Below the pieces are notes generated by a model. That model was not told the DNA's origin. It did not search any database and was given only the letters and a program-made list of their open reading frames with translations. A DNA stretch of 64,000 bases from Climacium dendroides (taxonomy: Eukaryota; Streptophyta; Bryopsida; Hypnales; Climaciaceae): contig OX467089.1 of the NCBI GenBank assembly GCA_950106755.1, positions 28,439,345-28,503,344 on the forward strand. The letters are read 5' to 3'. Shown here one piece after another: positions 20,931 through 46,904 of this stretch; the stretch's first letter is position 1; each line of letters begins with the position of its first letter. The translations under genes were made by a program, and so were the position numbers.

Positions 20931-22029
20931 TTCAGATCGACCCGACCTAAATGCCAGTACATGGAGCTTCTACATTTCATCTTCTATGTGTTTGATCTAC
21001 TTGGACTCGGTTCGTTTTGCTTCATACGCTTCAGGTCGACTCGACCTGAAGTTCTAGTCGGAATATTCAGATATTCCTGCTACTGTGATGTCCTCAGTGT
21101 TATTGATTAATGTTATCGGATCGTCCTAGTACGTATTGTTCTCACTCTAGAACTAGCAATTCAGGTCGGTCCGATCTGAATTGCATACGATAGTGTTGTC
21201 ATGTTTGTTGTTGGTAAATGGATGTTTATTAGAAATGTGTCTATTGGTCAATTTGTTAATTATACTAGGTGTCTAATATCCTCATATAAATATATATGTT
21301 GGTTAAGGGAATACGTATTTGCTGTGCCAGATTGCAGAGGGTCTTCCTTGCAGTTCAAGTCGGACCGACTTGATCTGCATTTAATTTTCACGATCATGTT
21401 ATTTCTCTTCTGGGATGTTAGTGACAATGTCTGCTACTCAGTTGCTTCCCTTGTACTGACAATGCTAGTAGGTGTACATTTCAGGTCGGTCTGACCTGAA
21501 ATGCATGTTCATCTCATGTCAACATTATCCATGAAATAGCACGGACAAAAGCAGAGATTTGGGAGAGGATATGATTTATGGGGCTGTGCAATTCAGGTCG
21601 ATGCGACCTGAATTGTAGTGTGGGTCATGTGACGTATATTACTGATATGTTAAAGAATTTATTTATTGGTCAATTTGTTTATAAATAGGTGTCTAATATC
21701 GTGATAGTAATTTATTTGTTGGTCTTACAACTTATTTGACACGTCAGATTGTGTAGGGTCTTCTTTGCAGTTTAGGTCGGACCGACCTGATCTGCATTGA
21801 ATTTTGACGACCTTGTTATTTGTCTTTTGACATGTTAGTGCAATTGCCTTCCATTTACTTGCCTTCTTTGTATAGAAAATGCTAGTAGGTGTACATTTCA
21901 GGTCGGACCGATCTGAAATGCAGGTTAATCTCATCTGAAAATTTTCAAGGAATTTGCTCGGACCAAGGAATAGATTTTAGAAGGGGATGTGTTTGAAGGG
22001 ATATGCAATTCAAGTCGATGCGACCTGAA
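20931..22029. repeat. Palindrome array upstream of gene 1 (element A, 9 sites)
   Basis: Nine 21-bp palindromes related to TCAGGTCGANTCGACCTGA start at 20931, 21030, 21160, 21354, 21480, 21592, 21771, 21897 and 22009, spaced about 90-195 bp. The arms are well kept (TTCAGGTC and GACCTGAA) and the centre varies (GAC, GGA, GAT, GGT). The spacers are not alike overall, except for one tandem duplication. The array lies directly upstream of gene 1, where a promoter is expected. Likely a protein-binding array, by inference. Confidence 0.92.
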
Positions 22030-22030
22030 T
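21231..22030. repeat. About 420-bp tandem duplication within the array
   Basis: 21231-21615 and 21655-22030 are diverged copies: both share TTGGTCAATTTGTT, AGGTGTCTAATATC, GTAGGTGTACATTTCAGGTC and a GTCGATGCGACCTGAATT site at the end. It shows how the array grew. Confidence 0.75.
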
Positions 22031-22190
22031 TGCAGTTTCGTTCAGGTGCCTTACATTCGTGGTACGTTTAGGAATTTAGTGTGATAGGATGATACCTGGG
22101 TAGTATTGGGCTGATTTCGGGGAATTTGTGTGGTTGTAGCTGGTCATTTTTTTCCGTGACATTCTGAATTCTAATTTGTAGACCTTAAGG

Positions 22191-22325
22191 AAACCCTAAA
22201 CCCTAAGCAATGGACCCTAAAGAAACCTTGGACCCTAAGTACTAAACCCTAAACAACCCCTGGAACTGAAGCCTTGGACCCTAAACAATGAATGCCATTT
22301 TCTGAACTCTAAACCCTAAACAAAG
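22191..22325. repeat. Telomere-like CCCTAAA block, element A (gene 1 side)
   Basis: Degenerate plant-type telomere units (AAACCCTAAACCCTAAG, then spaced ACCCTAAA motifs) lie just inside the array. The mirror block in element B is at 45865-45926. Confidence 0.7.
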
Positions 22326-24015
22326 TCCTGTGCATTATAACTCACCTCAGGAATTGAAAAATGAGGACCTTGAAATGCAATGCAGATGGATTAATCTCCA
22401 AAACCTGCAAGATTATCCACATTTTCAACAAATTCAAGAGTTGAAAAAAGCCAAAAAAATCAAAAACAACATCTCAAACCAGCAGACCACCTAAACCTAA
22501 AACCAAAAAGTAATTGTGCAAACCTACAACATTTCCAACAAGCATGTTTCCACCTAGCAACTCCCAAACCATGAATTTCTAACAGAAATCAACAAACCTC
22601 AAGAGAACTAAAAAAGGAACGTACGCACACGATACATCCTGCAACTTCAACCCCACTAAAATATTCATTGGACATTGCAGCTAGCTTTACAACAATCACA
22701 GAAATCACTATTCAAAGCAGAGATGGTGCAAGAGAATTGAAATTAATACATACCTGAGTTTCTACAAGCAAGCGCTATGCAACTTTAGCCTCAACTTAGC
22801 TCCTACTTTCAGTGTAGCTGCTTATTATGGACTCCACAATCTTGTAACTCCAGTGCTACAATCGTCAATCTAAAATGCAAAAAACAAACCAATTTTAAAA
22901 AACTTACATTGCAAACCAAATGCCAAGAAACAAACTGCAAACATATTCCAAGCAACTAGATTCCTTCCAACAAATAAAAAGAAAGATCCAATCTGTTGGG
23001 AGCAAATACCTCCTAATACAATACACAACTCTTATCAGAAAGCAAATACCTCCAAACACAATACACAACTCTTATCCACAATAATTGAATTTCAACAAGA
23101 TTCTTTGGGCACCCAACACAATGCGATTTCATCCTCAATTTTTTTGAATTGAAGACCATTTATCCACAAAAAACTACATCACTGCAAGTACGGCAAGCTT
23201 CGAAACAAGGCGCCCTTGCAATTCAACAGAACTTTAGTAGGTGAACAATTCCAATCACCGTTGATCAATCTTCGATGATAAAAGTGAATGCTTCCCTCTG
23301 GACCTATGCTGAGTTACAATCCACTTACAAAATGCACTTTAACCAAGCATCGAATCCAGAGCTAGCAAATATGATCAGCCTCACAATGTAGGTTTGATGC
23401 AGGGCAATGCCGAGTTATCTCGTAAGAATACACACGTAAGCCTAAGCATTTCGAAATTACTCAATGGGGAGATTGCGCTATCGATTCAGTTTTATTACTA
23501 TAGTTTGTTGAAGCAAGGGAATCTATCTCGTTCTAAGCCCCGATTTCAATTTGCGATGTCCGCTGTCGGGGTTTTAGGGTTCAGGGTTTTGCGTGTGAAA
23601 TCCTTTAGAGTACGCAATTCGAATTTTTTCATGAAAGAGATTAGCACCTTCGCAAGCGAGGTCGAAAGCACATATCGAACAGAGTAAGGAAAGAAAGGAT
23701 ACTTGCAATGCTGCGCCCGCTGCTGCTGCGCCTTGTGCTCCGGCGGCGAGCGCCCTCTGCTGCTGCGAACGCCCTCTACTACTGCGAGCGCTCGATTGCT
23801 CCGGTGCCCTCTACTGCAAGACCGTGCTCCCTCACTCTCCTCCAATCCCACAATCCGACACCTCTACTCTATTGTGAAAATTGAAAAACAAAAAACACGA
23901 AAACAAAACAAAAACATACATTGCACAACATGAAAATACAAACAGAGCAAAACACAGACAACAAAACACAACGAAAGAATCCAAACCCTAACCAGCTTGA
24001 ACCCTACATTCCACG

Positions 24016-24250
24016 ATGAACCCGCCCGAACCCGCCCGAACCTATTCCCACCCGCCTGAACCTGTACATGCCCTCCGGAACCTGTTCCCGTCCATCCAAA
24101 CCTGTTCCCTCCCGCCCAAACCTGTACCCGCCCGCCCGAATCTGTATCCGCCCGGACCCGGACCCGCCTCAGGAAACCATACCCGGATTCGCCCGAACCG
24201 GTACCCGGACACGCCTATGGAACCCGGACCCGTACCGGCTTTATACTTCT
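24016..24250. repeat. CCCGCCCGAACC minisatellite
   Basis: Short units of CCCGCCCGAACCTGT type, partly degenerate. The equivalent in element B is the GCGGGTACGAGGCGG array at 43620-43950, which reads similarly on the other strand. Confidence 0.75.
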
Positions 24251-24884
24251 TTTGCATTACTACTAGAATGCCCTGTGGCGTTGCCACAATGAAAACAAAA
24301 ATAAAAGTAATTTTTAAATTTTCTTAAAAACCAAAAACAACTCAAAAATGCATAACTTTCTAACTGTAAGTTGGAATGCCATGAAACCAAGCCTGTGCAC
24401 CCCTCCTCGCCAAGAACTCTCCGACAATACCAAAATTGTGACCAAAATAACTAAAAAATGCACAACTTTCTCACTGTGAGACGGAATGCCACAAAACCAA
24501 GCCCATGCACGCCTCCTTGTTAAGAGCTTTCCGACGGTACCAAGATTGCAACCGAAATATAAGAAAAAATAATTTTCTAATTTTCTAGAACCAAAAATAA
24601 CTCGAAAATGCACAACTTTCACACCGTTCACGAAGCTTTTGAGATTTACAAGTTCTTCCTTGAAATTTTTTTTTTCGGGTGCCAATGTTAGTAATAATTG
24701 AATCAAATTTCTAATGCATTTTAATGTATGTGTATTTTTTACCATATTCACTATTTGATTCATGTATTTCATTCATCATTCATTAAATTTCTATTGGTTA
24801 TATCAGTATATGCTTATTTCTTAAATAAATTATATGAATATTTTAGTAATTTTCATTTAAATATTTATTAAAATTCTTGCTCTG

Positions 24885-25135
24885 CATTCTATCATACTAC
24901 TAAAATCACTAGGCTTTCTGTAATATCACCTTTTTACACTGTCTGATATTATAAAGCTTCAACGGCTATTTGACCTATAATAGCACAAAGTGTAAAAGGT
25001 GATATTACAGAGGTAAAGTGATATTATGGAGGCTTCATATTTCTTGGCTTCATACTTCATTTTACTTCCACAATTCTATGATTTTCTTTTCTTACTACCA
25101 AATGATTTGAAGTTTTGTTAGATAAAAGCAATTTT
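24885..25135 (+). repeat. Dispersed ATATCAC-type inverted repeat, copy 2
   Basis: TGTAATATCACCTTTTTACAC and its reverse complement GTGTAAAAGGTGATATTACA form a long hairpin. The right flank matches the window-start copy (515-800) in reverse. Confidence 0.7.
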
Positions 25136-25529
25136 GAATTCTACAATAAAGTATTTACAAAGTCTTTACAATCTGACAAATTTGCATTTCAATTCTTCAA
25201 TTTTGGTCACCACTGCTTGTAAGTGAAAAAATTCATCAAGTGGTGGTGTCCTTGCAAATGTTTTCATGTTTACAAAGATTTCAAAAAAAAAATTATGATA
25301 TAAAGATTTTCTTTAATTACTTTCTATTGCACAATATATGTATTTCCAAAAAGTATTGTATGAGAATGTCAATATTTTCATTTAAAGATTATAAATACTT
25401 TATTAATCTACATTCTATCACATAAGAATTTGATGAAAGTAATATAGTTAACGTGTAGTAAAGCAAGCGCCAACTGCTAGTCTAATACATAAAAATTCTA
25501 ATGAAATTTTGAGGATGAATGCGTCTGGT

Positions 25530-26330
25530 AGGATTCATTGAAAAAAATATTTTAAAAGAACCCTATTGCTTTCCTACACTTTGTCAATTGAAAATTTGAA
25601 ATGGGTTTTAAAAAAAATCCTCTAAAAATCATGCTGTATTTAATAGAAACCAAACCAATAAATTATATCGTTTTGACGTGGAAGCATGTCCGAAAACATA
25701 ACACACAAGTTGCAAATCTTTGAAATAATAAGGATTCATGGAAAAATGAAGTTTAAGAGAACCCTATTGCTTCCCCACACTTTTTCAAGTGAAATGGGTT
25801 TTAAAAAAAAGACTCTAAAAATCATGTTGTATTTAATAGAAACCAAACCAATAAATTATATCGATTTGACGTGGAAGCATGTCCGAAAACATAACATACA
25901 AGTTGCAAATCTTTGAAATAATAAGGATTCATGGAAAAATGAAGTTTAAGAGAACCCTATTGCTTCCCCACACTTTTTCAAGTGAAATGGATTTAAAAAA
26001 AAGAGACTCTAAAAATCATGCTGTATTTAATAGAAACCAAACCAATAAATTATATCGTTTTAACATGGAAGCATGTCCAAAAACATAACACACAAGTTGC
26101 AAATCTTTGAAATAATTCGGATTCATGGAAAAATGAAGTTTAAGAGAACCCTATTGCTTCCCCACACTTTTTCAAGTGAAATGGGTTTTAAAAAAAAGAC
26201 TCTAAAAATCATACTATATTTAATAGAAACCAAACCAATAAATTATATCATTTTGATGTGGAAGCATGTCCAAAAACATAACACACAAGTTGCAAATCTT
26301 CGAAATAATTAGGATTCATGGAAAAATTAA
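25530..26330. repeat. Tandem repeat, four units of 193-201 bp
   Basis: The unit start AGGATTCAT recurs near 25530, 25731, 25924, 26119 and 26312. Units share AAGAGAACCCTATTGCTTCC and GTGGAAGCATGTCC. Unit 1 is the most diverged. The repeated open frame over it (beginning MSENIT or similar) is a repeat artefact. Confidence 0.93.
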
Positions 26331-26472
26331 TTTTGCAAACATTGCAAAAAGAAATTGAAAGTGCATGTAGTATAATTCCTGTGTATAAAAACCTTGAGTT
26401 CACTTCTAAATTAATAATTTGTTCAATGTTTCAAAAACATGATATGAAATGATTTTGTAAACTACAGAAATA

Positions 26473-26533
26473 CCTAAACCGCAAACCCTAAACCCTACAG
26501 ACCCTAAACCCTATAGACCCTAAACCCTAAACC
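26473..26533. repeat. Telomere-like CCCTAAA block, element A (transposase side)
   Basis: About eight ACCCTAA-type units, some with one changed base. Same strand sense as the block at 22191, and mirrored in element B at 40595-40650. Confidence 0.85.
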
Positions 26534-26759
26534 GTAAAATTCTTATTGATAAAATCACATGCAAACAATTGGGTGGTGCAAAAGGTTGTGTTTGTCTAAA
26601 TTTACAAACAGACCCTAACTTCACCAAAATCAAATTGACTCCAAAAATTGCAAAAGAAAAAAAGGCAATGAAGACTTTTTGCCTAGATTCTATTAGAAAT
26701 AGAATCTAGAAATTAGTGCTTAACGTTGCAAGAAAGCAACCTCATAAGTACTTAATAGC

Positions 26760-27473
26760 TTTCAGTGGCTATTTCTGTCATGAACAGTCTAGGCGGGAAT
26801 CAAAACCCAAAGGAATTTGCGGAAGGACTTCGGGATTTTGAAATTCCTTTCTACAGCTCCCGCCTTCCCGTTCACGCCTACACATTGCCGCCAAAATTGT
26901 TTTGAATGTCGTTGTATCCGCGCGCATTAGGGCACTCTCCTTCTTCGTCGCAAATGCATGGACGTTCATGCGAGATTTCACTTCTCTCATGTCATTACTG
27001 AACTCTATCAACTTCTGTACTTGTACTATCTAGAATGTCGGAGTATTGCGCTTCGAGGATCTCGGTGAACGCGCTCGTTGCCTTCCATATGTCTTCAGGT
27101 TAGAAGCCTTCAGCATTTTCAAACATTTTCATTCAATGGATTGCACATAGTTACTTTGTAAGCACATAGTAGTTTTGTGAGTGTGTATAATGTTTCTTTC
27201 AGCGCTGCCATCTATTGTCGAGTTCCTAGTTGATGAAGTTGGCAGAGTGCGTGTGTTTCCAATGTTCATTTCCCTAAAATTGAGTTGCATGATTATGAGT
27301 TCTGGACTTCCCCAATTCTTAGTGACAAGGTCTGTATTCAATGTTCAGTTCTCGACACCTGAGTTGCAGAATTTTGAGAGTACAGTGCCCGATTATCTCG
27401 CCGAGAAACTCGGAATGCGAGATCACGATTACTACGAGATTGCCAATACAGTGTCCGAGAAATCCGGAACTGT
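26760..27473 (+). promoter_or_regulatory. Probable leader/promoter region of transposase-like gene (A)
   Basis: A stretch of more balanced composition between the telomere-like block and the array. It includes GGCGGGAAT near 26793, close to an E2F-type site on the other strand. The transposase start codon follows a splice acceptor, so a 5' leader exon must lie upstream, and this region is a candidate. No firm promoter motif was identified. Confidence 0.3.
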
Positions 27474-28281
27474 TTAGGTCGAGTCGACCTGAATACGAAC
27501 TACGGTACATGAATAATTTATTAATGCACTTCAGGTCGAGTCGACCTGAATGTGAGATTGTCTACATTAGTAATTCGTTCATGCACTTCAGGTCGACTCG
27601 ACCTGAACTAACGTATATGATAGTAAGTAAAGTAATCTGAAACGTATCCTAGGTATATTGAATAGTTTTGTCATCGAATATCATTAATGAAATGGTATAT
27701 ATGGCATTTCAGATCGAGTCGACCTAAACCGTATCATTAATTGTAATTTCGTTCAAGTGAAAATCTCGTAGATGTCCTTCTGACATTCCCGATACTCACA
27801 GATTTAGTCACCAAGAATTGTGTACGTAATGATAATAGTATGCAGATGGAATTCGGTTCACTGTATATCCTGATTTCAGGTCGGTTCGATCTGAAGTGTA
27901 GGTATTCCCAACACAGACATCAATTAGAGAAGTTCGAGATTTTTATAGGAATAAAATAGGGAATTCCCATCGAATTGAACAAATGAAGATGGATTCATTC
28001 TCTCAGAGTACAAGGGACACTTCAGGTCGATCCGAGCTGAAGTTCAGGATTGTACTCAATTTTCTTACGCTTATATTTTCGGCTATCGAAAATTATACAA
28101 GGCAGGGGTCAGACACTTCAGGTCGATTCGACCTGAAAACATAGTTTACAAATATCTGAATTTATAAGGAATTTTAATGAATGATGTCAATTGCAGTTGA
28201 AACCTAGGCTTCAACAAATAGGTTTGTTGGTGTCATAGATGTAGCTATAACATTTGGTCATTCAGGTCGGATCGACCTGAA
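27474..28281. repeat. Palindrome array upstream of transposase-like gene (element A, 8 sites)
   Basis: Eight palindromes of TCAGGTCGANTCGACCTGA type start at about 27474, 27530, 27587, 27708, 27875, 28021, 28117 and 28261. Three have the GAGTCGAC or GACTCGAC centre; 28021 has one arm damaged (GAGCTGAA). The last site ends 72 bp before the start codon. Same motif as the array at 20931-22029, so one factor could act on both divergent gene groups. Confidence 0.92.
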
Positions 28282-28352
28282 CATGAATGAAACTACATGA
28301 TCTATGCTTCAATTCACTTATCCTGTTTCACATTGCATTTTTACAGGTATCC

Positions 28353-31244
28353 ATGGATACTATAGATGACCCTGATGACATGGACGTGTCATCGGGTTCT
28401 GAATCCAGTGAATTCAGACATGATGAAGAGGATTTCATGGCATCTTCAGAAGACGAATTCCAGAATGTCGAAGTAATGAATGTTGGGGTCCTGGAATACA
28501 AAGGTCTACCGCATCGGCTTTGGAATACTCAAGTTGTCACCTTGTACAATGAGGCTGGAGTGCTTGTGGGTGAAGGTGTCTCTCACAGTGTGAACTCTGA
28601 CCTCGTTTTGGGTGCCAATGGCCCTCTTGGTGACACCCACGTGGCGATCCACATCTCCAAAACACATAGCGAAGAGGACCTACTAGAGGAACAAGTGTGC
28701 TCATTGTTGGCTTGGCCTATTCATCTTGTCCACTGTCGTGGAGCTAGCCTTAGAGACCATGAGGCTAGGGACAAATTCAACTGTCTCCAACAGGCTCTCT
28801 TGAATCCGCCCTCTTTGACGTCTTCGAGACCATACACAAGTATGGTCCGAAATGCGCCCCGCGAGGCAAATTTGAAATCGAAGGAGCTGCTTACTCAAGA
28901 TTCCATCCATGCAGTGTCTACTAAAATATGTTGTAGTCGCAACTGTGTTCAGCCATTTCTTAGGGATAAGATTCGAGCCTTTCGTGAACGCATGTATCGC
29001 AACTCCACGTTCAAGCACATGGCCTACATGAAAATGAATGTGCACAGGTAGGTGCATGTTGATGAGCGTGGTAGACGAATGGTGTCAATTGACAACACAC
29101 CAGTATGTATGCGAGCGTAGATGCATATAGCTGGGGTCCCTGAGGCCACATTCTATCGCTACCAATCGTACATGAGGCGTGGTCGAGAGGCAAAGGACCA
29201 TGGCAATAAGGGAACGGTGAAATCGAGGAAACACACTCAACAAGCTATAGCAACATTGAAGTGCATTTTGGAGAAAGAAGCAGATCACATGCCTCATCGT
29301 ACGAAGACCCTGAAGTCAGGAGAGAAAGTTGTGGCCAAGATCCTACCTTCTACCTTCCAATGGAAGGGTAAGATGAAAGAACTCAATGATGTCAATGCTG
29401 TTTTTGGACTGAGTGAGGTGTCAGCTTCGAACTTGAATAAGATTAGGTGCTGTAAGTTCTCTGAGTATGAGGTGAAGAAGCCTGGAGACAATTTTGTGCG
29501 ATGTGGCACATATGACAAATTGCAAGACCTCAAGAAGGGTGCTATAAGTGGGTCTCACAATGAATTGAAGTATTCTCGGAAGTTGGATAGGCACGTTGAG
29601 ATTGCTTGAGCTCATCGGGAGTTGTATTATGCAAACCGTCACCGTTCAGTAGCTTTTCCACACAAATGCCTCACAGTTATGCACGACAAGATGGATCATG
29701 CAAAGATTGCTTCTCTAGTCTTTTCCCACAGGAGTAAGGAGCTTGATGGCCTTGTGAAATTGCCTGTGTCTGTCACTGGCATGATTGCTCATGGTCATGG
29801 AGATGTGCGTTACGCACATTACGGGTTGGATCTCTTTAAACTCGATTCAAACTATACAATTGGTTCTATGGCAAAGTTGTTGCAGGATTTGGAATTGCCA
29901 TCGAAGTCTTCTTCTCGGCAATTATTTTCTGGGTCAGGGTCTTCAAATTTGTTCAGGGCAGCGCTGCAGGGTAAAGAAATGTGCGACGCGTCACTGCCAC
30001 CACCTCCAATGAATGCAGTTCCAGTAGTGCCTTTGCCTCCTTTTTTGAACGTGCAAATGGACAATGCCACCGACGACAACAAGAACATATATGTTTTCTG
30101 TTTCTGGTCTCTACTTGTTGCTAACAAGATCTTCAGAGAAGTGTATGTCAACTTCATGATTGTTGGTCACACACACGACGACATTGACACATTGTTTGGA
30201 AGATGGAGCATGCTGTTGAAGAAGGAGAACTTCCCAACAATCCTGGCGCTCATGAAGTCATTCATGGATGTTGAGTCTATTCCTACTATCCCTCACCTCA
30301 TAGAGGAGGTGCCTGATTTCAAGCGTTTCATTGCAGGAAAATGGATGGATGGTGATGAAATCCTTGTAGGACACACAAGACCGCAACAAGTGAAGTTCTA
30401 CCTAGACTCTGTTGGATGCCCAGTCATGAAGTACAAGTTGAAGTGCACGGATGAAAACTGGTTAGGCAGACAAGATCAAGCCATTAAGTTGTGGAAAGAA
30501 GACGATGAAGGACGGAGTTTGTGGCCACGTGGTGTGCCTTTGCCAGTACCACTCAACCCAATGAAAGGTGTCAATGACATTGTCAAAGGTTTATCAGGAT
30601 TCATAAACTATTGGGACGACTTGTGCAAAGCAGACATGAGTGGAGAACATCGTAGGCGCTATGAGAATGTGGTGCGCTATTGGCGTGGTGTAAAGGCAGC
30701 TCTTTAAGAGCCACTTCCTACTTCTAGTGCTCTAAAAGACGGTTTCTGGCCAACTACTCGTATTCAAGTGACAGAAGTTGATCATTTAGACAAAGATGGT
30801 GAAGATCTCGAAGAGCATGGAGAGGATGAGCTTTATGTTGGGCCCTTGAGGGATCATCCACAACCATCCTTTAGGGTGGCTCGAGATGTATACGAAGGGT
30901 ATTTTGTTGCAGTTCGCCCTACAGACGGTGACAGCAGACTAGTTTGGATTGTCAGAGCATTGTCTGATCCAAACTCTAACCCCGAGAAACCAAACTGTGT
31001 GCACATTCAGTACTTTCGGCCAACATCACGCAATCAAGAAGTTCAAGACTTCTATGAAGGATGGGATAGTGATAGAGGTTTGCTTTGGAGGGTTGATGAA
31101 ACCAAAGAACCTACGTGGGAGACAACAAATGCTTTGATTACAACATGGAAGTCTCAAAACAGAAGAGGTACTTGCCAATGCAGAATCAAGATCCCTACAG
31201 TTCAAATCGAAATCATCAACCAGAGTTTGGCTTCATATACATGA
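28353..31244 (+). pseudogene. DUF7869-type transposase-like protein (element A copy)
   Basis: About 960 codons in one frame, starting at the ATG after a tttacag splice acceptor; the homologue in B has the same layout. It contains an acidic N-terminus, a conserved GLPHRLWNTQVVTLYNEAGV region, a CCSRNCVQPF cysteine cluster, and an RNase H-like core with NVQMDNATDDNKN and VGHTHDDIDTLFGRW near 30050-30200. A C-terminal SH3/Tudor-like segment (GYFVAVRP, VWIVRAL, IQYFRPTSRNQ) follows. Acidic residues in the core are placed as in an RNase H fold, so a transposase role is likely but inferred. Four in-frame stops kill it: 29049 (TAG), 29118 (TAG), 29607 (TGA) and 30705 (TAA). At 29049 the other copy has CAG and at 29118 TGG. 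Confidence 0.85.
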
Positions 31245-31740
31245 TATGGAGAAATCATGTACATACAGTGGATGCATTTTAACTATGACATTCATATAGA
31301 GGGTATTGTTTTATTTCTACATCTTATATGAAACTATTTTCATTGCATAAGTGTTGGACCCTTAATATTATAATAGATGATAGTCGTTTTAGTTTTTTTT
31401 AGAGGATATAGGTTTCAGTTGATTGATTTTATTTTATTGTTTGATACTGCATGATTGTTTTCAAGTGTATGTTTTGTGTTTACAGAACAATGGAATTTAA
31501 ATATAGTCTTAATATATATATTTTTTAGATTCTTAAGCTATATTTTCTCTATTTTTTAATTAATTTTCTTATTTGTGTATCACTAAATATATTTTATTAG
31601 AAATTACATTGCTATTGGAGAAAAAAATGTAGTGGATATATCCACTATTTATTTGGTTAACATGTAAAGCACTTGTCACATTCTGGATAGGGGGTCCGTT
31701 GGTTGTTACAACTTTCCTACCGGCAAAGCTCACTTAATAG

Positions 31741-31857: not shown

Positions 31858-31947
31858 ATCAAAAGATGTCATTCTCTTCACTTATATAAATCAGAACATA
31901 TACCCTAAAGCAAACTTCATGTATTTGAACAGTCCATCACTGAAAAG

Positions 31948-31967
31948 ACTCTCATTTTAATGGAAAT
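31948..31967. repeat. Terminal inverted repeat, element A inner end
   Basis: ACTCTCATTTTAATGGAAA. Reverse complement of the B inner end (TTTCCATTAAAATGAGAGT, 34767-34785). Confidence 0.75.
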
Positions 31968-35448: not shown

Positions 35449-38286
35449 TCAATTATAGGAAGTCAAGCTCTCGTTGATGACTTCAATTTGTATAGCAGGG
35501 ATCTTAATCATGCACTCCTGAGTGTCTTTCTTGATCCTCGACTTCCATGCTGTCATAAGAGCATCAGTGTGTTGCCAAACAGGAGGTTCAGTTTCATCGA
35601 CCTTCCAACGCAGACCTCTTTCGCTGTCCCATCCGGTGTAGAAATCTATAACATCTTGATTCCTTGATGTTGGACGGAAGTATTGAATACGGACACAATT
35701 CGGATTTTCTGGGCTGTAGTGCGGATCAAACAATGCCCTTGCAATCCACACCGGATGAGTGTCACCATCTGCGAGGCGAACCGCAACAAAATAGCCTTCA
35801 AACAAATCTCGAGCTACCCGAAAAGATGGATTTGGACAACCACTCAACGGCCCAACATATAGGTCATCTTCCCCAAACTCTTCACGCTCTTCACCATCCT
35901 CGTTCAATTCATCCGCTCGATCTGCTACTACTCGTGAAGTTGGCCAAAAACCATCTCTCAAAACACCAAAGGTAGGTAATGGTTCCATCAACGCTGTCTT
36001 GACGCCACGCCAGTACCTCACTATGTGCTCGTAACGTCTTAGGTAATCCCCAGTGACATCTGCATTGCATAAATTGTCCCAATATTTCACGAACCCCGAC
36101 ACACCTTTGACGATGTCATCTAAGCCTTTCATAGGCTTCAACGGAACAGGCAGCGGTTCACCCTGTGGCCACAAACTTCGCCCTTCAACATCTTCTTTCC
36201 ATAATTTGATGCCTCTTCCGTCTTCTCCTAATCACTCTGCATCAGTACAAAGAAGTTTATACTTCATGACAGGGCACCCCGTTGAGTCCAGGTAGAACTT
36301 CAACTGATGTGGTTTTGTGTGTCCAACGAGGATGTCATCACCATCAACAAGTGACCCTGCTATAAAACCCTTGAAATCGGGCACTTCTTCAATAAGGTGA
36401 GGGATAACGGGGATGGAACCCACATCCATGAACGACTTCATTAGTGCTGGTACTGTTGAGAAGTTGTCTTTCTTCAAATCCATGCTCCATCTTCCAAACA
36501 ACGCATCTATGTCGTCATGTGTGTGACCCACAATCATGAAGTTCACGTACACTTCCCGGAAGATTTTGTTTGCAACAAGTAAAGACCAAAAACAGAAAAC
36601 ATATCTATTCTTGTTGTCTCCAGTGGCATTGTCCATCTGTACGTTCAAAATGGGCGGTAGCCGCATGGCTAGAGCTAAAGTATTTGGCAACGGCGGTAGT
36701 GACACGTTGCACATGTCTGCACCCTCTAGCACAGCCTTAAACAAATTAGTGGACTTTGAATTTTTGAACAACTCTCGAGAAGAAGACTTCGGAACTAACT
36801 CTAAATCTCACAACAACTTTGCCATTGATCCAACGGTATAGTTGGAGTCATGGGAGAAGACATCCAACCCATAATGTGCGTAGCGTACATCTGTATGACC
36901 ATGTGCAAGCATGCCCGTCATAGAAACTAGTAGCTTCATGAGGCCATCGAGTTCTTTACTCTTGTGAGAGAACACCGGACAAGCGGTTTTCGAGTGATCC
37001 ATTTTGTCGTGTATGATTGTAAGACATTCATGCGGAGACTTGAATGACAACTCTCGATTGATGTAATATACATCCCTATGGACACGAGCAATGGTAAGAT
37101 GCCTATCCAATCTTCTTGCCCATTTCAAAGCAGTTTGAGATCCACTGATAGCACCCTTAACAAGCTCATTTAGCTTGTCACAAGTAGCACACCGAGAAAA
37201 ATTATCCCCTGGCTTCTTCACATCGAATTCTAAAAACTTTGTGGACCTTATTTTACTCAAGTTCGAAGTGGAGATCTCCTTCAATCCAAAAGCCGCATTG
37301 GAATCATTGAGTTTCTTCAATTGGTCTTTCCATTGAAATGAGGCCGGAAGAATCTTTGACACGACCTTCTCACCTACCTTCAGACTCCGGGTGCGATGCA
37401 GCATATGATCGGCTTCCCTGTCAAGGATGCACTTTAAAGAAGCTATTGCTTGTAGGGTATGTTCTCTAGGCTTCAACAATCATGTATTACCGTGATTCCT
37501 TGCTTCTCGATTGAGCTTCATGTATTTTGAGTAGCGATAGAATGTAGACTCAGCAACCCCCGCAATAAGCATCCATGCGCGCAAACACACATTTATGCCT
37601 TCAATTGTAACCATCTTCCTTCGATGTGCACCTTCATGAATTTGTCTGTGCACATCAGTCTTCATGAAGGCACGGTGTTTAAATGTTGAATTTTTGTACA
37701 TTCTTTCTCGAAATGCCCGAATTTTCTCCCTCGGGAACGGTTGGACACAATTCTTATTGCAACACACCTTGCTAGACATCATGTTGATTGACTCTTGTGT
37801 AAGGAGGTCTTTTGCTTTGACAGCAGTTTGACGAGGCGGATTTCGGTTGGCACTTGCATAGGGCCTAGCAGATTTGGATGATGGTGGATTCATTAAACTT
37901 GCTTGCAGACGGTTGAATTTGTCTCTCTGTTCATGATCGCGTAAACTAGCACCACGACAGTGCACGAGCTCAATAGGCCAAGCTACTAATGAGAAGACAT
38001 TTTCTTCAGAAATGTCCACTTCAGAATGTGATTTTGAAATGTGCACTGACACATGAGTGTCTCCAAGAGGTCCAGTGACACCAAGTACAAGATCTGAATT
38101 CACACTATGACAAGTACCTTCTCCAACAAGAACGCCCTCTCCATTATACAAAGTAACAAACCTTGTATTCCATTTTTGTCGAGGAAGCCCTTCACACTCA
38201 GGAATGCCAGCACTCATTTCTTGAAGTACCTGGAGCTCATCGTCTGATGAGTCCATGAGGTCAAGTGGGACATCAACGGAGCCCAT
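35449..38286 (-). pseudogene. DUF7869-type transposase-like protein (element B copy)
   Basis: A single frame of 946 codons from the ATG at 38286. A tttacag acceptor lies a few bases before it, so a 5' leader intron is likely, as in A. Domains: acidic N-terminus; GLPRQKWNTRFVTLYNGEGV; CCNKNCVQPF near residue 185; CATCDKL; the RNase H-like core with NVQMDNATGDNKN and VGHTHDDIDALFGRW at about residues 550-595; and a C-terminal SH3/Tudor-like segment (GYFVAVRLADGD, VWIARAL, IQYFRPTSRNQ). By eye it matches copy A in about four of five residues across the core. Three in-frame TGA stops lie at 37480-37482, 36808-36810 and 36232-36234. Copy A has CAG and TGG at the last two. Catalytic activity is inferred from the family pattern only. 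Confidence 0.86.
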
Positions 38287-38388
38287 ATTATCTGTAAACA
38301 TAAACCACAATCCGAATAGAAAATTAATAGATGAAGAAAGACCTATCAAATTTTATTAAATGTAATTTATTAATTTATGTAAATGCAG

Positions 38389-39605
38389 TTTAGGGCGGAC
38401 CTCCCTAAAATGCACAACTAGACAAACAAAGTTCTAGATCAATGAAGACCAATCTGATCGAAATTAATGATCATTGTACGGCTAACAACCCTTATCTGCT
38501 TCACAGTAGTGTGAAGTTTTCTGAACACAGATGGCGTAGCCCTCATTCATTTTCTTAATCTGTCAAAATCAATGGTGTGGCGGTTTTAGGCGAATAGCAT
38601 GACCACTTTGTCAGATTTTAGAAACTAAATAAGACATCCCTTCATATTTTCTTTCTTAAGTACTAAAATTGTGGCATTTCAATTTAGGGCGAACCTACCT
38701 AAATTGCATGAACATAGTGTGAAATATTTCAGACTCGACATGCTAAAACCCTATAAATTGAACATGGAAGAAGTGTATTTTAGGGCGGACCTCCCTAAAC
38801 TGCATGACCGGTAAAAACTGCATGAAGGTTGTCGAAGTCCTTTCCAAATTGAACAAGAACCTGCTTTGTTCACTGTTGTGCAAGTAATGAAACTGTTGCA
38901 ATGCAATTTAGGGCGGACCGTCCTAAAGTGTATGTCCGGACTCTCCGTGTATTAAAGATATAGCAAACCTACCTAGTTAATGCTTCTAAAACATTTAGGT
39001 TTGTCAATAGGTAGTTTAGGACGGAACGCCCTAAATTGCAATGACAGAATATATAGCGTAAATGTAAATTGTCTTTATTTCAGAGGGTAAATGATGCATT
39101 GCAATTTAGGGCGGACCGACCTAAACTGCTCGTCCCACTAGTAAAAATTTCGCTATATAGAATATAAATTAAGGCATTGATGCATTTCATTTTAGGGCGG
39201 ACCGACCTAAACTGCTTGTCCCACTAGTAAAAATTTCGCTATATAGAATATAAATTAAGGCATTGATGCATTTCATTTTAGGGCGGACCGACCTAAAGTG
39301 CATATCCAAATTGTTGATTTTGTGATTATTTATTAGAAACCCCAACTTATTTAAGTCTTCAGAAAATATTTAGGTTTGTCAATCTGCAATTTAGGGCGGA
39401 CCGCCCTAAACTGTATGAATAGGGTCAAGGAAATTGGATTCAGTGTTACTGTATTTTGTTGTCATATTCATAAAATTATTTCCGATCACAATGTAGTTTA
39501 GGTCGGACCGACCTAAACTATACTTCTTACAAAAACGTAATATGCTCGACATGAAATATAAATCATGACATGGTCTACTTGCATTTTAGGACGGACCGTC
39601 CTAAA
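38389..39605. repeat. Palindrome array upstream of transposase-like gene (element B, 11 sites)
   Basis: Eleven palindromes of TTAGGGCGGACCGCCCTAA type start at 38389, 38683, 38779, 38907, 39015, 39105, 39191, 39277, 39390, 39497 and 39585. The arms TTTAGG and CCTAAA are almost fixed. The inner bases vary (GCGGACCTC, GCGGACCGA, TCGGACCGA, ACGGACCGT). Site 39497 has the AGGTCGGACCGACCT core also found in element A, linking the two motif types. Confidence 0.93.
39105..39276. repeat. 86-bp exact tandem duplication in array B
   Basis: 39126-39211 and 39212-39297 are nearly identical. Each includes one palindrome and the spacer with CCCACTAGTAAAAATTTCGC, evidence of recent array growth by unit duplication. 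Confidence 0.88.
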
Positions 39606-40594
39606 TTGCACGTCTTCAAAAACATGTAGCCCAAGGAGTTTCTAAATATAGACCCGGATTTTACGGCTACAAACCAGAGTACCTATTTACACCGCAGAAA
39701 TTGAATTCAGTATGATGACTTAAAATTGAGCTTGTACTTGAAAATGTATGAGCACATTGCAAATTCCTCAATACGAAACTGAAATGTACAAGAAGAAGAG
39801 GAGAACTCTGTCGAACTTGAAATCTGTTGCGTTACATGACTATGCACAAAGTACTGGAGTGCTAGAAATGTCTGGACAAAGAAAATGCTTTCATTTGTTG
39901 GTTGTACGCAAAGCGCACCTTGAACTGCAGAACGCCTCGTCCAAGTGTGCCGCGTTTAAAGTCTTCAAACCACAACAGAAGAAAATGACAACAATGAATA
40001 ACAGAGAGCTTGAACAGGTTCACGATCACATAAGAAAAACCAAATGAGAATGATAACGACACTAACAATCTCAACGCGCATACACAAAGCACCCGGCCAC
40101 CCGCGCCGGGGGGAGCAAAGTTTTGGCGCGGGGGGGAACAAAGTTTTGGCGCCGGAGGGGGGCCGCGCTAAAACAAAATGAATTCAAATTTCAAATTTTT
40201 TTTCAGGAGATTCGTTTTCCACTTTGTAGCACTTTTTCAGGCCACACGATCTTTGGAAGAAGTTCGTGCAGTCTTTCATTAGAAAAATAGTCGTCCACTT
40301 GACAGTGCTTACTTCAGATTCAAGCCTATTTCAAGTGTTTGCGGATTTGCAAAGTCAAGTACTGGAATTTTTTTTCGCAAATCACAGTGTTGACAAAGCA
40401 AATTTTGCGCGCGATTTTTTGTCTAACATTAATGATTTCCAGAAGTAGGTGAGACATTCTTTCCTTCCTTTTCCTTGCCACGCAACAATGCATGTGCAAA
40501 GAATGTATTGAACTTTTGTAACTTTGTTGACTTTGCGTTTCAAAAATAAAATCTCTTTGTTTATGAATGTTGGTGTACAAAATGTAAACAACTC
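39606..40594. other. Probable leader/promoter region of transposase-like gene (B)
   Basis: Balanced to AT-rich sequence between the array and the telomere-like block, with a GC-rich island at 40090-40175. No protein was recognised. By position it matches 26534-27473 in element A. Confidence 0.4.
40122..40152. promoter_or_regulatory. Duplicated E2F-like sites
   Basis: TTTGGCGC occurs at 40122-40129 and 40145-40152, each within AAAGTTTTGGCGC and on the same strand. TTTSSCGC is the plant E2F consensus for S-phase genes. The sites are about 1.8 kb upstream of the transposase-like start codon, so the link is speculative. Confidence 0.4.
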
Positions 40595-40650
40595 TTTAGG
40601 GTTTAGGGTTTAGGGTTTAAGGGTTTAGGGTTTAGGGTTTGGGGTTCAAG
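40595..40650. repeat. Telomere-like TTTAGGG block, element B (transposase side)
   Basis: About seven TTTAGGG units, one with an extra A. Mirror of 26473-26533 in element A. Confidence 0.9.
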
Positions 40651-40989
40651 GTCCAGTGTAAAAAATTTGGATTAAATGTTCAACATTCGAAAAAAGAGTA
40701 CATCCATAAACATTGAAAAAACTGGAAATTTTTTTTTTAACACTTTGGTATAAACCAAAGCCTTACAAATGAACTTTAAAAAAAATAATTGATACTTCTT
40801 CAAATGGGTTTGAGTAGTTAAAAAAATGTAAAAGTCCATGTACTTTTATGGACTGTTCATGCAAAAGTCGTGGACTTCAACCTAATACCAAAGAAAAAAA
40901 TAGGTATAAGCTTGAAATTCTATCAAAATCAACTAATCATGATTTCTTGGATGTAGTCGTGAACTAATATGTGATACAATGAATACGTA

Positions 40990-41880
40990 GTATAGTAAGT
41001 ACGAGCCTCTAATATTAATGATAGCATTTGTGATATTACAAAGGGACTTATGATTTTAATAGTATGATGAACTTTGATTCCAAGTGAATGGGTAATTATT
41101 TGGGTAATATTTTTGGCTTTGCCAAGGGTACTAATTGATTTATTGTATGTCTTTCATAATGTTCTATTATTTTAAACAAAAAGTAGTTCACAATCACCTT
41201 TGTAATATCACTTTGTATAGAGGGTGATATTATAGAAATAATATAGTCGTTGCAATTGAAGTGATATTAAAGAGGATCAATATGGTGATATTATAAAGGT
41301 AGCAATTCCATTGCTTTTGTTGGTTTTATACTTCTTTTACATTTCTATGATGCTGTGCTTTTTTGAGCTTTGAGCTTCTCATTTGAATTATGTATTGCTA
41401 TTACCACATGATTTGAGAAATTTATTAGATTGAATTGATTTTGGATTTCACAACAATTAAATTGTTCACGAAGTTTTTGAGATTTACAAAGTTTTTCTTT
41501 AAATATAATAGTATAATAATAAATAAACTATTTTAATTTTTGCTTAGCAAAACAAGCGCCACCTATGTAATATCACATTTTTCAAAATTTGTGATATTAT
41601 AGAAATACAATGGCTTTTACAATATCACACCTCTAAACTCTACAAAATTACAAAAGTACGATGGTCATTGAAGAGAGGTGGAAGTTAAAAAATATGAATA
41701 GAGTGATATAAAAGAATTGACATTTCATTGCCTTCTTTGGCTTCAAACTTCATTGCACTTTCATAATTTGGTGATTTTTTGAGTTTTAAACTTTTGTGAC
41801 TTGAATGTTTTATTATTATCAATTGATTTGAAAATTTTGTTAGTTTAAAAAAATAATAATAATTTTTTAATACAATATTA
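40990..41880 (+). repeat. Dispersed ATATCAC-type repeats, copies 3 and 4
   Basis: GTAATATCACTTTGTATAGAGGGTGATATTATAG and similar motifs near 41200 and 41570, each followed by a tail with a TTTTTGAG/GATTTGA pattern as in the 24885-25135 copy. Confidence 0.55.
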
Positions 41881-43619
41881 TGGCAAATGAGTAGTGCACC
41901 AAGCGCCAACCTTTAGTCATTTATAAAATATTAGTATTTAGGGTTTGTATAGTTCAAAGAATATTAGAAAATTGTGAATTCAAAATCTTTAAGCGTCAAA
42001 TTTATAAAACAGTTATTAGAAAAACAAATTTGATTATCAATGAAGATAGTAATTTTAGAGAATGAGAATAGTTAGAATATTGCATTTTGATCTTGTAAAA
42101 TTTTTTAATTAATTCAAAACATAACTAATACCCAATATTTCATCAATTTCAAAAATATTTTTATATCTATTTCACTAATAAATATTGGTTAATGCAATGG
42201 AAGATGTAAACATATAGAGGATGAGTATGGATTATAGATTAGAAGTGTTAAAAGTCACTACTAAGTTAAGTTGCAATTTACAATACATCTTTATGTTTTA
42301 GAGATTGAATTTTTAAGTCCTTAGGAAATTATAGGTTGTCAATGATTTAAAAAGGGACAATAAATGTTACCATTTTACAGTCATAGTAGTTTCTTCTAAA
42401 CTAAAGACAATTTTTATGCTCTTAACCAATGAATGTGCTTAGATTTGATATTTTCATAAACCTCAAAGTTCCATTGTAACTTGAACTGATTTTAGGTAGG
42501 CTCTTATGGACTCAATATTCATCTATTTATGATTTTTTGAAACTTCTTGTAGAGATAGAAAATACACTACCTTTTTGAGAATATAATTTTTTTTCAATCA
42601 CTACGCCATGGGCGCAAAAATTATTGTACAAAAGCTTCTTTTTAAAGTTTGGTGGACAATCCATCCTCCTAAAAAAGAAATTCAATATTTATTTGAATTC
42701 TTTTTATCATAGATTTTGTATAATCATCTGCATGGAAAGCTTTCATTCCTCTTCATGAAAGCTCCTTCTTTATTCTTTGAATTTCAGGTTTATCAATAGT
42801 TCTTTCTTCTCTTCGCTTGTATAATTGAATCAACTTCATCACTCAACAAAGATGACATGAAGTAGCACTATTGTGATGTGTGCCATTATCATAATTTAAA
42901 ATTTTTAAAAAGAATTTCACTCCATAAATCTTTGGAATTCAATAAAGAATTTATATAGTGTAAAGAAGTGATATTTTTGGTATAAATTGAAAGTTCAATG
43001 CCCTACATAGTGCAAGGGCTTTGTTTGTGAATGCATTGTGAAAGTTATTTTTGTTTCAAAAATAAAAGATAATTGAATTTAAATCTTTAATTTTTCCAAG
43101 CCTTACATTTCAAATCGTAATTCCAAATGCCACAAAATTGGCATGAATACAAAGCACTTGTGCACAAAAGAGTGCAAAGACTTCATACAAGAGGAAACTT
43201 TTACTTAGTTCACGATTTAGGGTACAAAAAATAACATTTCAAGATCCTTATTGCTTTCTTTCAAAAAAATTAAGCCAACTTCTAAATATAAATGTATTGT
43301 CTATGGCTATGGTATACATGATTTGGTTTTGTCAAGAAAATTAACTAAACTGTTCCACTACCATATCCGAAGATTCCTTCATCACTCCTTAGACGACAAA
43401 CGTATGCTGTAGTGTTTATGGATTAACCTTCAAATGATGAGGCGGATGATTTTTGTCTGATGGATGACAAGAAAACTTCATTCAAATGATGGAAGTTCCA
43501 CTATTCATCCTCCTAATTCCGTGTGTAAACAAAAAGATCATCTATAGTATTTTGCTCTTGCAAATGAGTGTTTCTGCATTATTTTAATTTAACAATTCAC
43601 ACGGTGAAAAACGGTTTTT

Positions 43620-43950
43620 CACATTAGTGGGTATCAACCAGAGGTGGGAACCTGATTAGGTATGGTTGAGCATTGGGTGGGTATGAGGCCGTTACAAGTC
43701 GGGTAGGGGGCGGTTTAAAAGGTGGGTAGGGGGGCAAGTACGAGGCAGGTATGCGGCGGATAGGGTGCGATTACGGGGCAAGTGCGGTGCGGGTAAGAGG
43801 CGGGTATGGGGCGGGTATGGTGCAATTACGGGGCGGGTATGGGGCAGGTGCGGGGCGGGTACGAGGCGGGTACGGGGCGGGTATGGTGCGATTACGTGGC
43901 GGGTATGGGGCAGGTGCGGGGCGAGTACGAGGCGGGTACGGCGCGGGGAG
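43620..43950. repeat. GCGGGTACGAGG minisatellite
   Basis: Variants of GGGGCGGGTAT and GAGGCGGGTAC repeat in 15-30 bp steps, with an interspersed GGTGCGATTACG unit. Confidence 0.85.
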
Positions 43951-44236
43951 CTTGAGGTCGACTTCGACATTCCGACTAGGGTTTGTTTTCTGCTGCTCCT
44001 GCTCCTCGTCGTTGTTGCTCCTCGTCGTTGCGCTGCTCCTCGTCGTTGCCACTCCTTTTATTCCTGCTAGGATTTTTTGCCACAGAACATGAGATCATGG
44101 TGTGTCTGCATGTGATTTTGGAAGGAGGTGTTTGGTGGCAGATTTGCGGATCAAGTCTGCAGCGACTCAAAGGCCGAGGGACATTGACGTTAGCGTGAAG
44201 AAGCTCACGTGATTCAGCATCATTCTATTCAGGTTT

Positions 44237-45300
44237 GCTCCTGCTCCTCGTCGTTGCTGCTCCTCGTCGTTGCCAATCGCGTGCATTGTTTTCACCGATT
44301 TGCTCTTGCGCTACTCATCCCACTCCAGTCAAAATTTATATTTTTCTGGTGTAGTTTTCTTATTATATTGTCGTTCGGGAAAGAGAGTGGCTTGATTTGT
44401 ATTGGCACTCGTTGCGAACTCAGATTGACTGTAGTTGGGGACTGGATGGAGTGTTGGCGGTGGAGTATGGAGCGTAGGGATCCAGAGTGAGAACACGAAG
44501 ATAATATGATTCATTGGGGTGTTGGAGACGGGATTGCGGTTTGGGTTTAGGGTGTGATGGTTAGGTTTTTGTGAGGGGGAGAATTGGAAGTCTTGAGTTC
44601 ATTTTGGATGGTTTGGTGCGATTGAGGGATTGAGGGAGTATTGTGATTGCTTGCTATTGTAATTTCTTAATAATTTGATTGCTTAGATTTCGTGTGAAGA
44701 GATGAGATGAGTCTTCCGGTGAAGTGGCAGCACGAGGAGACGGCGGTGGTTAAGGTGGTGGACACGGGAACAGGAAAGCAGCAGCAGCAGCAATTGTTCC
44801 TGCTCCTCGTCATTGCTGCTCCTCGTTGTTGCCAATCACGTGCATTGTTTTCACCGATTTGCTCTTGTGCCGCTCATCCTACTCCAATCAAAATTTATAT
44901 TTTTCTAGTGTAGTTTTCTTATTATATTGTCGTTCGGGAAAGAGAGTGGCTTGATTTGTATTGGCACTTGCTGCGAATTCAGATTGACTGTAGTTGGGGA
45001 CTGGATGGAGTGTTGGCGGTGGAGTATGGAGCGTAGGGATCCAGAGTGAGAACACGAAGATAATATGATTCATTGGGGTGTTGGAGACGGGATTGCGGTT
45101 TGGGTTTAGGGTGTGATGGTTAGGTTTTTGTGAGGGGGAGAATTGGAAGTCTTGAGTTCATTTTGGATGGTTTGGTGCGATTGAGGGATTGAGGGAGTAT
45201 TGTGATTGCTTGCTATTGTAATTTCTTAATAATTTGATTGCTTAGATTTCGTGTGAAGAGATGAGATGAGTCTTCCGGTGAAGTGGCAGCACGCGGTGGT
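44237..45300. repeat. 559-bp tandem duplication
   Basis: About 44237-44795 and 44796-45300 are close copies: CGTGCATTGTTTTCACCG recurs 559 bp apart, as do TTGTCGTTCGGGAAAGAGAG and CTTCCGGTGAAGTGGCAGC. Few differences, so it is recent. Confidence 0.92.
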
Positions 45301-45864
45301 TAAGGTAGTGGAGACGGGAGCAGGAAAGCTTCACTTCATGTGCATCTGCGTCTGCTGTGCAGCTGTTGATTTTAATTTGCCAAAGAGGCGGACGTGTTCG
45401 GTCAGTTTGCGGTGTACTTGTGCAGTTTAGGGCATTTGTACACGCCCACCGACTTGACATTGTGAAACCGTGAGAAACCGTGAGATTTGGTTATTATGAT
45501 TGTTTGCCACAAAACGTGAGATCAGGGTGTGTCTGCATGGGTTTCATTTTTATTTATAGAATGGTGGAAAACAATTGGGAGCACTGGTTTCAATTGCATC
45601 TGGATGTTGCAATTCTGTTGAACTTGGGGACGAATCAATTGCTTGTCTCCCAAATTATATGTGACTAACTAGTTGCAATTGTACTTTTCTTGTTTTCTCA
45701 CTCCTTGTTTTGCACTCTTGGATTTGCAGTAGTGTGATTTGGATACGTTTGTGGTAGCAGCTTTGAGGTTTTTTTCGTTTGTGGAAGGAGACAAGTATCA
45801 AAAACCTATCATTGTGTTATTTGGCAGGTCAGGACTTCTGCATTGGATGTTAATAAATGGTTCA

Positions 45865-45926
45865 GGTTTAAGGGTTTAAGGATTTAGGGTTTAGGGTTTA
45901 GGATTTGAGGTTTAGGGTTTAGGGTT
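45865..45926. repeat. Telomere-like TTTAGGG block, element B (gene 1 side)
   Basis: Degenerate GGTTTAAGGGTTTAAGG and TTTAGGG units. Mirror of 22191-22325 in element A. Confidence 0.8.
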
Positions 45927-46083
45927 CTAATTATCATGCTTTACAGTTGAAGAACGTGTTAACCCTCGCATAGAATTTGACGGATATGATCATGATATCT
46001 GCGGGTCTTAGGCGGGTATCACTTAGATATCCCCGGGTATAAAGCGGGTATTGAGTGCAAAGTTAGAAATAGAACGTCTGCAA

Positions 46084-46865
46084 TTTAGGGCGGACCATCC
46101 TAAACTGCATTTCTGAAGATTATGAGAATTGATCAATCCTATATATATGCTACGCTGAGAAATAAAAATGTAGTCCATGCGCAATTTAGTGCGGACCATC
46201 CTAAACTGAATTTTTGTTCATAATGAGAACTGATCAACTCTACATATAAGCTACACTAACTCGGTAAGGAATCAAAAATGTAGTCCATGCACAATTTAGG
46301 GTGGACCGTCCTAAACTGCATTTCTGTAAATCACGAGAATTGATGAACCCTATGCATATGGTACGTTGTAAAATAAAAAATATAGTCCATGTGCAAGTTA
46401 GGACGGACCGCCCTAAACTGCCTTTCTGTTGATATTCAGAATTAATCAACCCTATATATATGCTACATATAAAAACCGAGAATATAGACCACGCGCAATT
46501 TAGGACGGACCGCCCTAAACTGCACTCCAAAGCACTACACTGACGACAGAAGCATAGACATTACCATAAAATGATTAATGAAATCAGACACATTAAACAA
46601 TTTTAGTGATGATTGGTAGATAAAATACTTCTAAAACTCAATGCCTCTTCTACTAATTAAACAATAATGCTTACGAACCAAAGAATAATCCCAACAGTTT
46701 AGGGCGGACCGCCCTAATCTGCAGACTAATAGAGAGACGTAAGCAGCAAACAGAAGACTACCAAATCAAAAATAAATAAGGGCATAATCAAAATTGACTT
46801 AGTAAATATCAACAAGAAAAATGTGCGTCTATGTTTAGCAACAGTTTAGCTCAGTCCGTCCTAAA
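46084..46865. repeat. Palindrome array upstream of gene 1 (element B, 7 sites)
   Basis: Seven palindromes of TTAGGGCGGACCGCCCTAA type start at 46084, 46185, 46295, 46397, 46499, 46698 and 46845. The first five recur every about 102-110 bp with related spacers (TATATGCTAC, TAGTCCATGC), so they arose by tandem duplication. The last site ends about 40 bp before the gene 1 start codon. Confidence 0.93.
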
Positions 46866-46904
46866 CCGCAACAATACACTGAATTTTAGTTGTCCATGCT
46901 CAGA

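Follow-up and report, generated by a model that had tools for sequence, protein, structure and literature searches.

Lineage-specific palindrome arrays beside a predicted ParB-fold gene in large transposons of the moss Climacium dendroides

What recognizes the arrays of long palindromes that flank both divergent gene groups in one stretch of the Climacium dendroides genome? We analyzed this 64,000-nucleotide stretch (contig OX467089.1, positions 28,439,345 to 28,503,344; hereafter the window) and found that it holds two related DNA transposons, A and B, which lie head to head, end in AACRYWATATTCA-type inverted repeats and are best explained as two lineages of one large plant DNA transposon family. 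In each, a gene with a predicted ParB-like domain (gene 1) runs opposite in direction to a transposase-like gene. The long dyads occur at both promoters and in introns, are absent from element ends and exons, differ between lineages and stand beside a fast-evolving gene of predicted ParB fold, an arrangement that would suit a DNA-binding system specific to the element. That the element family carries its own DNA-recognition system, in which gene-1 protein would act on the arrays for lineage-private promoter control and anti-silencing, is a proposal to which we give about even odds; judged from sequence, some element-encoded protein very probably binds the sites.

Palindrome arrays in two related elements

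The arrays and the further sites, palindromic and therefore listed without strand, are as follows.

20931 to 22029: A array upstream of gene 1, with 9 palindromes 99-194 bp apart
27473 to 28281: A array upstream of the transposase-like gene, with 8 palindromes 57-167 bp apart
38389 to 39605: B array upstream of the transposase-like gene, with 11 palindromes 86-128 bp apart apart from one gap of 294
46084 to 46865: B array upstream of gene 1, with 7 palindromes 101-199 bp apart
19258 to 19435: A intron 1 sites, at 19258 and 19415
17629 to 17813: A intron 2 sites, at 17629, 17678, 17727 and 17793
14821 to 15013: A sites between the FCP1-like block and the third open reading frame (ORF), at 14821, 14937 and 14993
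48353 to 48373: B intron 1 site
49849 to 50066: B intron 2 sites, at 49849, 49939 and 50046
52571 to 52768: B sites between the FCP1-like block and the third ORF, at 52571 and 52748

An initial annotation of the locus had counted 17 array sites in A (9 + 8) and 18 in B (11 + 7), and these numbers are exact; the additional intron and gene-gap sites that it mentioned lie outside the interval it described, at 14821-19435 in A and 48353-52768 in B, and occupy matching places in the two elements (gene-1 introns 1 and 2, and before the third ORF). Under a strict rule demanding the core AGG.CG on both arms plus T/A flanks, the window contains 49 sites compared to 0-5 in 30 order-2 Markov sequences, and under a looser rule 60 compared to 3-17 in 20 order-1 sequences. 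Of the strict-rule sites, A holds 25, B holds 24 and the remaining 26.3 kb holds none, and no site overlaps the approximate coding exons or lies at an element end. For the site profile, the lineage comparison and the exon overlap we used 25 A sites, with 17678 replacing 14821.

13853 to 32099, plus strand: element A, 18,247 bp
13849-13852 and 32100-32103: target site duplication of A, GTCT, an exact 4-bp duplication
13853 to 13877, plus strand: A terminal repeat, AACGTAATATTCATTAAAATGAGAG; partner at 32075-32099, 19/25 alike
34634 to 54062, minus strand: element B, 19,429 bp, in the opposite orientation to A
34630-34633 and 54063-54066: target site duplication of B, AATC, an exact 4-bp duplication
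54038 to 54062, minus strand: B terminal repeat, read inward AACACTATATTCATTAAAATGAGAG; partner from 34634 (AACGCTATATTCA); extent approximate

Transposons of the Sola1 superfamily make 4-bp target site duplications, and GTCT of A and AATC of B have this length.

Searching the genome (412,615,100 bases) located the 21-bp core TTYAGGNCGNNNCGNCCTRAA at 2673 places and the full 31-bp form at 239, with 0 matches to the control of either, the core control being the reversed pattern. Among the places listed, each cluster held one site type as judged by eye. Nine of 10 clusters sampled on one contig stand beside transposase or gene-1 homology, and the tenth (L039) has sites with neither homology within 4 kb. 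The palindromes are thus tied to the elements, and the abundance in unrelated DNA that would have spoken against the initial annotation was looked for and not found.

Several other repeats accompany the arrays. TTTAGGG tracts, telomere-like or telo-box, lie just inside the arrays at 22192-22253, 26473-26538, 40595-40650 and 45859-45926, mirrored in A and B. Between the two arrays of B is a G-rich 11-bp tandem repeat (43720-43961), and between those of A a tandem repeat of ~193 bp (25530-26300) with related repeats in the A-type copy L034.

Lineages with distinct site forms

The site had been described as 21 bp long, which proved too short. In B, information extends to +-15; each position of the TGCA ends, at +-12 to +-15, holds 0.75-1.7 bits, and the value drops to 0.07, near background, at +-16. 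These ends are weak in A and absent from a third lineage, C. The consensus of A and that of B differ sharply at positions -8, -4 and -1; position -8 is C in 42/50 A half-sites compared to 0/48 in B (p 6e-20), and position -4 is T in 49/50 compared to 13/48. The suggestion that consensus depends on lineage is borne out by these differences, and two more forms exist in the same genome. A pattern taken from L008, a locus in a bin labelled Synechococcales, occurs at 14 genomic places, 10 of them within one 8-kb cluster (L083) that represents a third element, lineage C. Its transposase is 41.5% identical to protein P0010 across the N-terminal part, its gene 1 is 30-39% identical to that of B, and its 13 sites of the form TTTAGCTCGA-N-TCGAGCTAAA lie upstream of both genes and in matching gaps. 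The other four places comprise two in B-type gene-1 copies and two in L081 and L082, which are identical in sequence and represent another lineage, D, with site ends ACAC/GTGT. L008 itself has a transposase nearest C (63% compared to 36-40% for A and B) and C-type sites, one of three with an A-like arm. A degenerate palindrome-like stretch near the C-type core also lies past the gene-1 stop in both window elements (16496-16516 in A, AGCTCGAGTCGAGCT; ~51200 in B, AGCTTGACTCGAGCT).

The position of the arrays upstream of both genes could also reflect a host transcription factor whose sites the elements gathered for expression, and palindromic arrays are usual for dimeric host factors as well. 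We regard this explanation as improbable, since lineages within one genome differ in consensus, none of the 49 sites falls in the 26.3 kb of flanking DNA and nine of ten sampled clusters are at elements.

A second alternative is that the palindromes work as DNA or RNA structure, forming cruciforms, hairpins, small-RNA sources or replication starts instead of protein sites, as might suit dyads of 21-31 bp that are perfect or nearly so and intron sites that would be transcribed. Against this, the two arms at B position -4 vary independently (10/24 paired against an expected 8.8), neither the centre base nor position -11 shows an excess in B, and the core is conserved in sequence beyond mere symmetry, leaving a structural role highly improbable. 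A comparison of CpG decay between arrays and sites gave no clear pattern.

Conservation of sites and spacers

The initial annotation held that spacers are unrelated and drift while arms are kept. Some blocks are in fact tandem duplicates, and the retention of arms is clear in one older tandem pair, with identity of 85/93 in sites compared to 188/295 outside (Fisher 5.6e-8), but uneven over 10 pairs, of which one has no difference (29/31 compared to 54/55), as do two of the 46-kb pairs. In recent copies, site conservation barely exceeds spacer conservation (A and L034, 489/526 in sites compared to 5206/5790 outside, p 0.026; B and L035, 564/589 compared to 5189/5483, p 0.28), although such near-neutral drift is expected if those copies are dead. 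Tandem duplication of part of the arrays, together with these recent copies, would fit a neutral by-product in which a palindromic repeat spreads inside elements by duplication. We consider that reading very unlikely, as the older pair keeps its sites alike while its spacers diverge, sites recur in matching gaps of A, B and C though the proteins are only 30-70% alike, and exons contain 0 sites.

Gene 1 and its predicted ParB-like fold

46896 to 51178, plus strand: B gene 1, exons 46896-48344, 48478-49830 and 50114-51178, open throughout; GT-AG splice sites picked by eye
16551 to 20903, minus strand: A gene 1, decayed, exon-1 frame broken in several places
47780 to 48215, plus strand: predicted ParB-fold domain in B gene 1, placed approximately by transfer of P0001 model residues 236-367
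49190 to 49830, plus strand: methyltransferase-like region in B gene 1, placed approximately by P0001 residues 636-848 and running on into exon 3
51710 to 52391, plus strand: B FCP1/NIF-like phosphatase domain, PF03031, first motif DLNGIL
15271 to 15825, minus strand: A FCP1-like counterpart, motif DLNGVL
52933 to 53652, plus strand: B third conserved ORF, no Pfam match; A counterpart at 14352-14711 (minus strand)

Structural modeling assigns the gene-1 domain to the ParB/Srx fold. Gene-1 relatives comprised nine matches, all from Physcomitrium patens, at 42-47% identity in eight and 33% in the ninth, and in four of these P. patens relatives the FCP1-like domain is fused to gene 1; a wider search for relatives is represented here by the best 120 of 309. 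The nearest named proteins, from Physcomitrium and Ceratodon, and the TTTAGGG tracts both point to a moss-like host. The ParB-fold gene adjoins the arrays in A, B and C.

The DUF7869 gene and fern-like contigs

28287 to 31244, plus strand: A transposase-like gene, PF25273 DUF7869, E 1.5e-38; in-frame stops at 29607 and 30705, gap at 29049-29120
35449 to 38352, minus strand: B transposase-like gene, PF25273 DUF7869, E 5.1e-37; in-frame stops at 37480, 36808 and 36232

Both window copies of the DUF7869 gene are interrupted by in-frame stops, and another genomic copy (L038) is open over 967 codons. We take the DUF7869 protein of A and B as a putative transposase. Its pieces matched PF25273 only, plus PF11427 below its cut-off, with no Mutator-like transposase match; a DDE fold is not demonstrated, as Foldseek with the transposase model returned no PDB match at E 0.001 or better. 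An open-access literature search on DUF7869 found no papers.

Scanning contigs of prokaryote genomes with a DUF7869 alignment identified 12 loci in bins evidently contaminated with other DNA, of which L017 and L018 are the same sequence. Eight loci (L009-L016) come from a bin labelled Trichormus, and we infer that they are fern DNA. Six of the eight carry at least three related palindromes upstream of the DUF7869 frame (L009 3, L010 5, L012 11, L014 3, L015 3, L016 10) and L011 carries two, with a spacing near 51 bp in L014 and L016 and cores of the forms AGTCGATGC-NNN-GCATCGACT, GGTCGATAC-NNN-GTATCGACC and ATCCGATGC-NNN-GCATCGGAT. Across the array from the DUF7869 frame, L010, L011, L012 and L016 have a divergent frame of 566-594 codons with a conserved stretch, FVIGGSHSAEARRQ, that hhalign places in register with gene-1 FYIINGQHSVAAS (E 0.034 with whole alignments and 0.0033 trimmed, compared to 0.43-0.88 for eight decoys). 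This frame is a probable gene-1 relative, placing such a gene beside the arrays of four fern-like contigs. Co-occurrence of this kind, here and in A, B and C, is the support for the initial annotation's suggestion that a dimeric element-encoded protein may bind the arrays. Elsewhere among the 12 loci, L017 has two CCTCGGATGC-type palindromes and L019 has inverted repeats of a different form.

A genome search with PF25273, in which 150 of 1819 candidates were scored, revealed a second, stronger-matching DUF7869 clade that is abundant in this genome and has frames up to 1077 codons. In six sampled 3-kb regions upstream of second-clade frames, no palindrome recurs and neither gene 1 nor the fern-like ParB protein has a match; five of the six include the frame start with ~2.6 kb before it. 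This result supports a pairing of arrays with the ParB-like gene and falls short of proof, because the six include near-duplicates and because a ParB-like gene that had diverged strongly might have escaped the search.

Candidate binding protein and mechanism

In the mechanism that we propose, the likeliest ligand of the palindromes would be the element's own gene-1 protein, which appears to combine three parts: a ParB-like fold, a degenerate region resembling an adenine methyltransferase, and an FCP1-like domain. Each dyad would be read by a dimer. The many sites per element would load much protein onto its non-coding DNA, where it would control both divergent promoters and act against silencing by the host, in the manner of VANC in VANDAL elements. 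Each lineage would act on its own copies because consensus and protein would change together. Gene 1 probably encodes the binding protein, and a role in anti-silencing or self-marking instead of plain transcription control is conceivable at somewhat below an even chance. We more tentatively envisage a eukaryotic counterpart of ParB-parS, in which a ParB-fold pseudo-methyltransferase nucleates on private arrays, coats the element and evades silencing, with co-evolution blocking cross-activation and the pairing predating the split of mosses and ferns.

The DUF7869 transposase-like protein might itself bind the arrays, for transposition or autoregulation, much as transposases bind repeated subterminal motifs. 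Its gene adjoins arrays in A, B, C, L008 and 7/8 fern-like contigs, of which L011 has just two sites. Some contigs have the DUF7869 gene alone beside an array because they end near it. In contrast, the sites lie at promoters and introns with none at element ends, the six sampled elements of the other clade lack sites in ~2.6 kb upstream, and L081 combines an A/B-like transposase with C-like sites, making the transposase an unlikely binder.

Alongside the recent-copy comparisons, several observations weigh against the proposed mechanism. The gene-1 model has a mean predicted local distance difference test (pLDDT) score of 60.9; Foldseek alone against the PDB returned nothing at E 0.001 or better (best 0.014), and sequence searches of solved structures matched neither gene 1 nor the fern-like protein convincingly. 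ParB-family proteins are expected to have, after the GQH position, an arginine required for nucleotide binding (PMC12704722, in the part available), the conserved arginine of the GxxR motif. Among 121 gene-1 relatives, the 68 with a signature found by pattern have Ser (63/68) or Asn (5/68) instead, so sliding driven by cytidine triphosphate (CTP) may be absent from the gene-1 protein. A DPPY-type catalytic motif is present in 0/17 gene-1 sequences checked, making methylation by this protein unlikely. No helix-turn-helix was identified in gene 1, where residues 361-640 after the predicted ParB fold are mostly of low pLDDT. The profile match to the fern-like frame is weak (Prob 1.5 untrimmed, 9.7 trimmed), tblastn with gene 1 did not recover that frame, and L013 has no array upstream of its DUF7869 frame. 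Finally, the L081 transposase is A/B-like (60-66%) yet its sites are C-like in core; the expectation of one consensus per subfamily holds in that the A, B, C and D forms differ, but the motif does not strictly follow the transposase tree. The simplest reading of this pairing is that the C-like core may be ancestral.

Comparison with known systems

VANC is the element-encoded DNA-binding anti-silencing protein of Arabidopsis VANDAL elements, and the available passages of PMC5735166 describe a short motif that recurs through non-coding DNA (introns, intergenic stretches and terminal regions), varies between related families and has targets that grow by tandem repeats. A, B and C likewise have non-coding motif arrays that differ between lineages. 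Unlike VANDALs, these elements are of another type, lacking a Mutator-like element (MULE) transposase match, and encode another protein, and anti-silencing is here proposed by analogy; the long palindromes also differ from the 9-base motif of VANC, and the text of PMC5735166 does not mention palindromes.

Another parallel is Sola1-1_Ec32, a giant Ectocarpus transposon that encodes a ParB-like and DNA-methyltransferase protein on the strand opposite its transposase, for which the authors suggest binding and modification of its own element (PMC12477816, in part). The likeness extends to a ~20-kb element with such an accessory protein opposite the transposase. Unlike Sola1-1_Ec32, the present elements seem to have lost the methyltransferase motif, carry an additional FCP1-like domain and have candidate binding sites identified; the text of that paper mentions neither palindromes nor DUF7869.

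The predicted gene-1 fold and the clustered palindromic sites also resemble ParB-parS, Noc, KorB and VirB, as far as these are covered in the consulted parts of PMC10770331, PMC12704722 and PMC11790492; a ParB relative can serve as an anti-silencer because VirB does. Unlike the bacterial proteins, gene 1 has Ser or Asn for the nucleotide-motif arginine and no identified helix-turn-helix, its candidate sites are longer and its setting is a eukaryotic transposon.

The protein class is already reported for algal transposons, and open-access searches, with most subscription journals outside their reach, found no report of palindrome arrays or of such arrays bound by a transposon-encoded protein. 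Where the algal proteins were proposed to bind or mark their own element, with no target named in those passages of PMC12477816, the present elements offer a candidate target: a lineage-specific 21-31-bp palindrome, with many copies per element and thousands per genome. The self-binding proposal can thereby be tested directly, each lineage needing a single protein and a single oligonucleotide, and the elements offer a candidate for a second case, independent of VANC, of transposons that recognize themselves by sequence, in which each element may label and control its own DNA through a private DNA-binding system.

Other features of the window

A viral origin was considered and rejected: the 21-bp pattern in viral contigs gave 7 isolated stretches with one site apiece and no array, DUF7869 scans of viral contigs yielded no confirmed relative, and tblastn in phages with the gene-1 exon-1 translation and with P0010 found no match. 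Rfam and tRNA scans of the window gave no matches.

TCCGGAT-rich repeats at 32300-32500, 34540-34630 and 54070-54250 lie beside A at its right end and beside B on both sides; A and B may lie within one older repeat. A GAATATTACGTT-type terminal-repeat motif at L034:3653, within an A-type copy region, is perhaps a nested or truncated relative. An inverted pair of 93 bp, 89% complementary, has one copy outside A (569-661) and the other inside (24993-25085) and is perhaps a small separate transposon. Further out, hAT-like transposase pieces (PF04937 DUF659, PF05699) lie at 10001-11716, and a frame at 1996-2439 with an LSM domain (PF01423, E 7.6e-07) is probably a host gene or gene piece.

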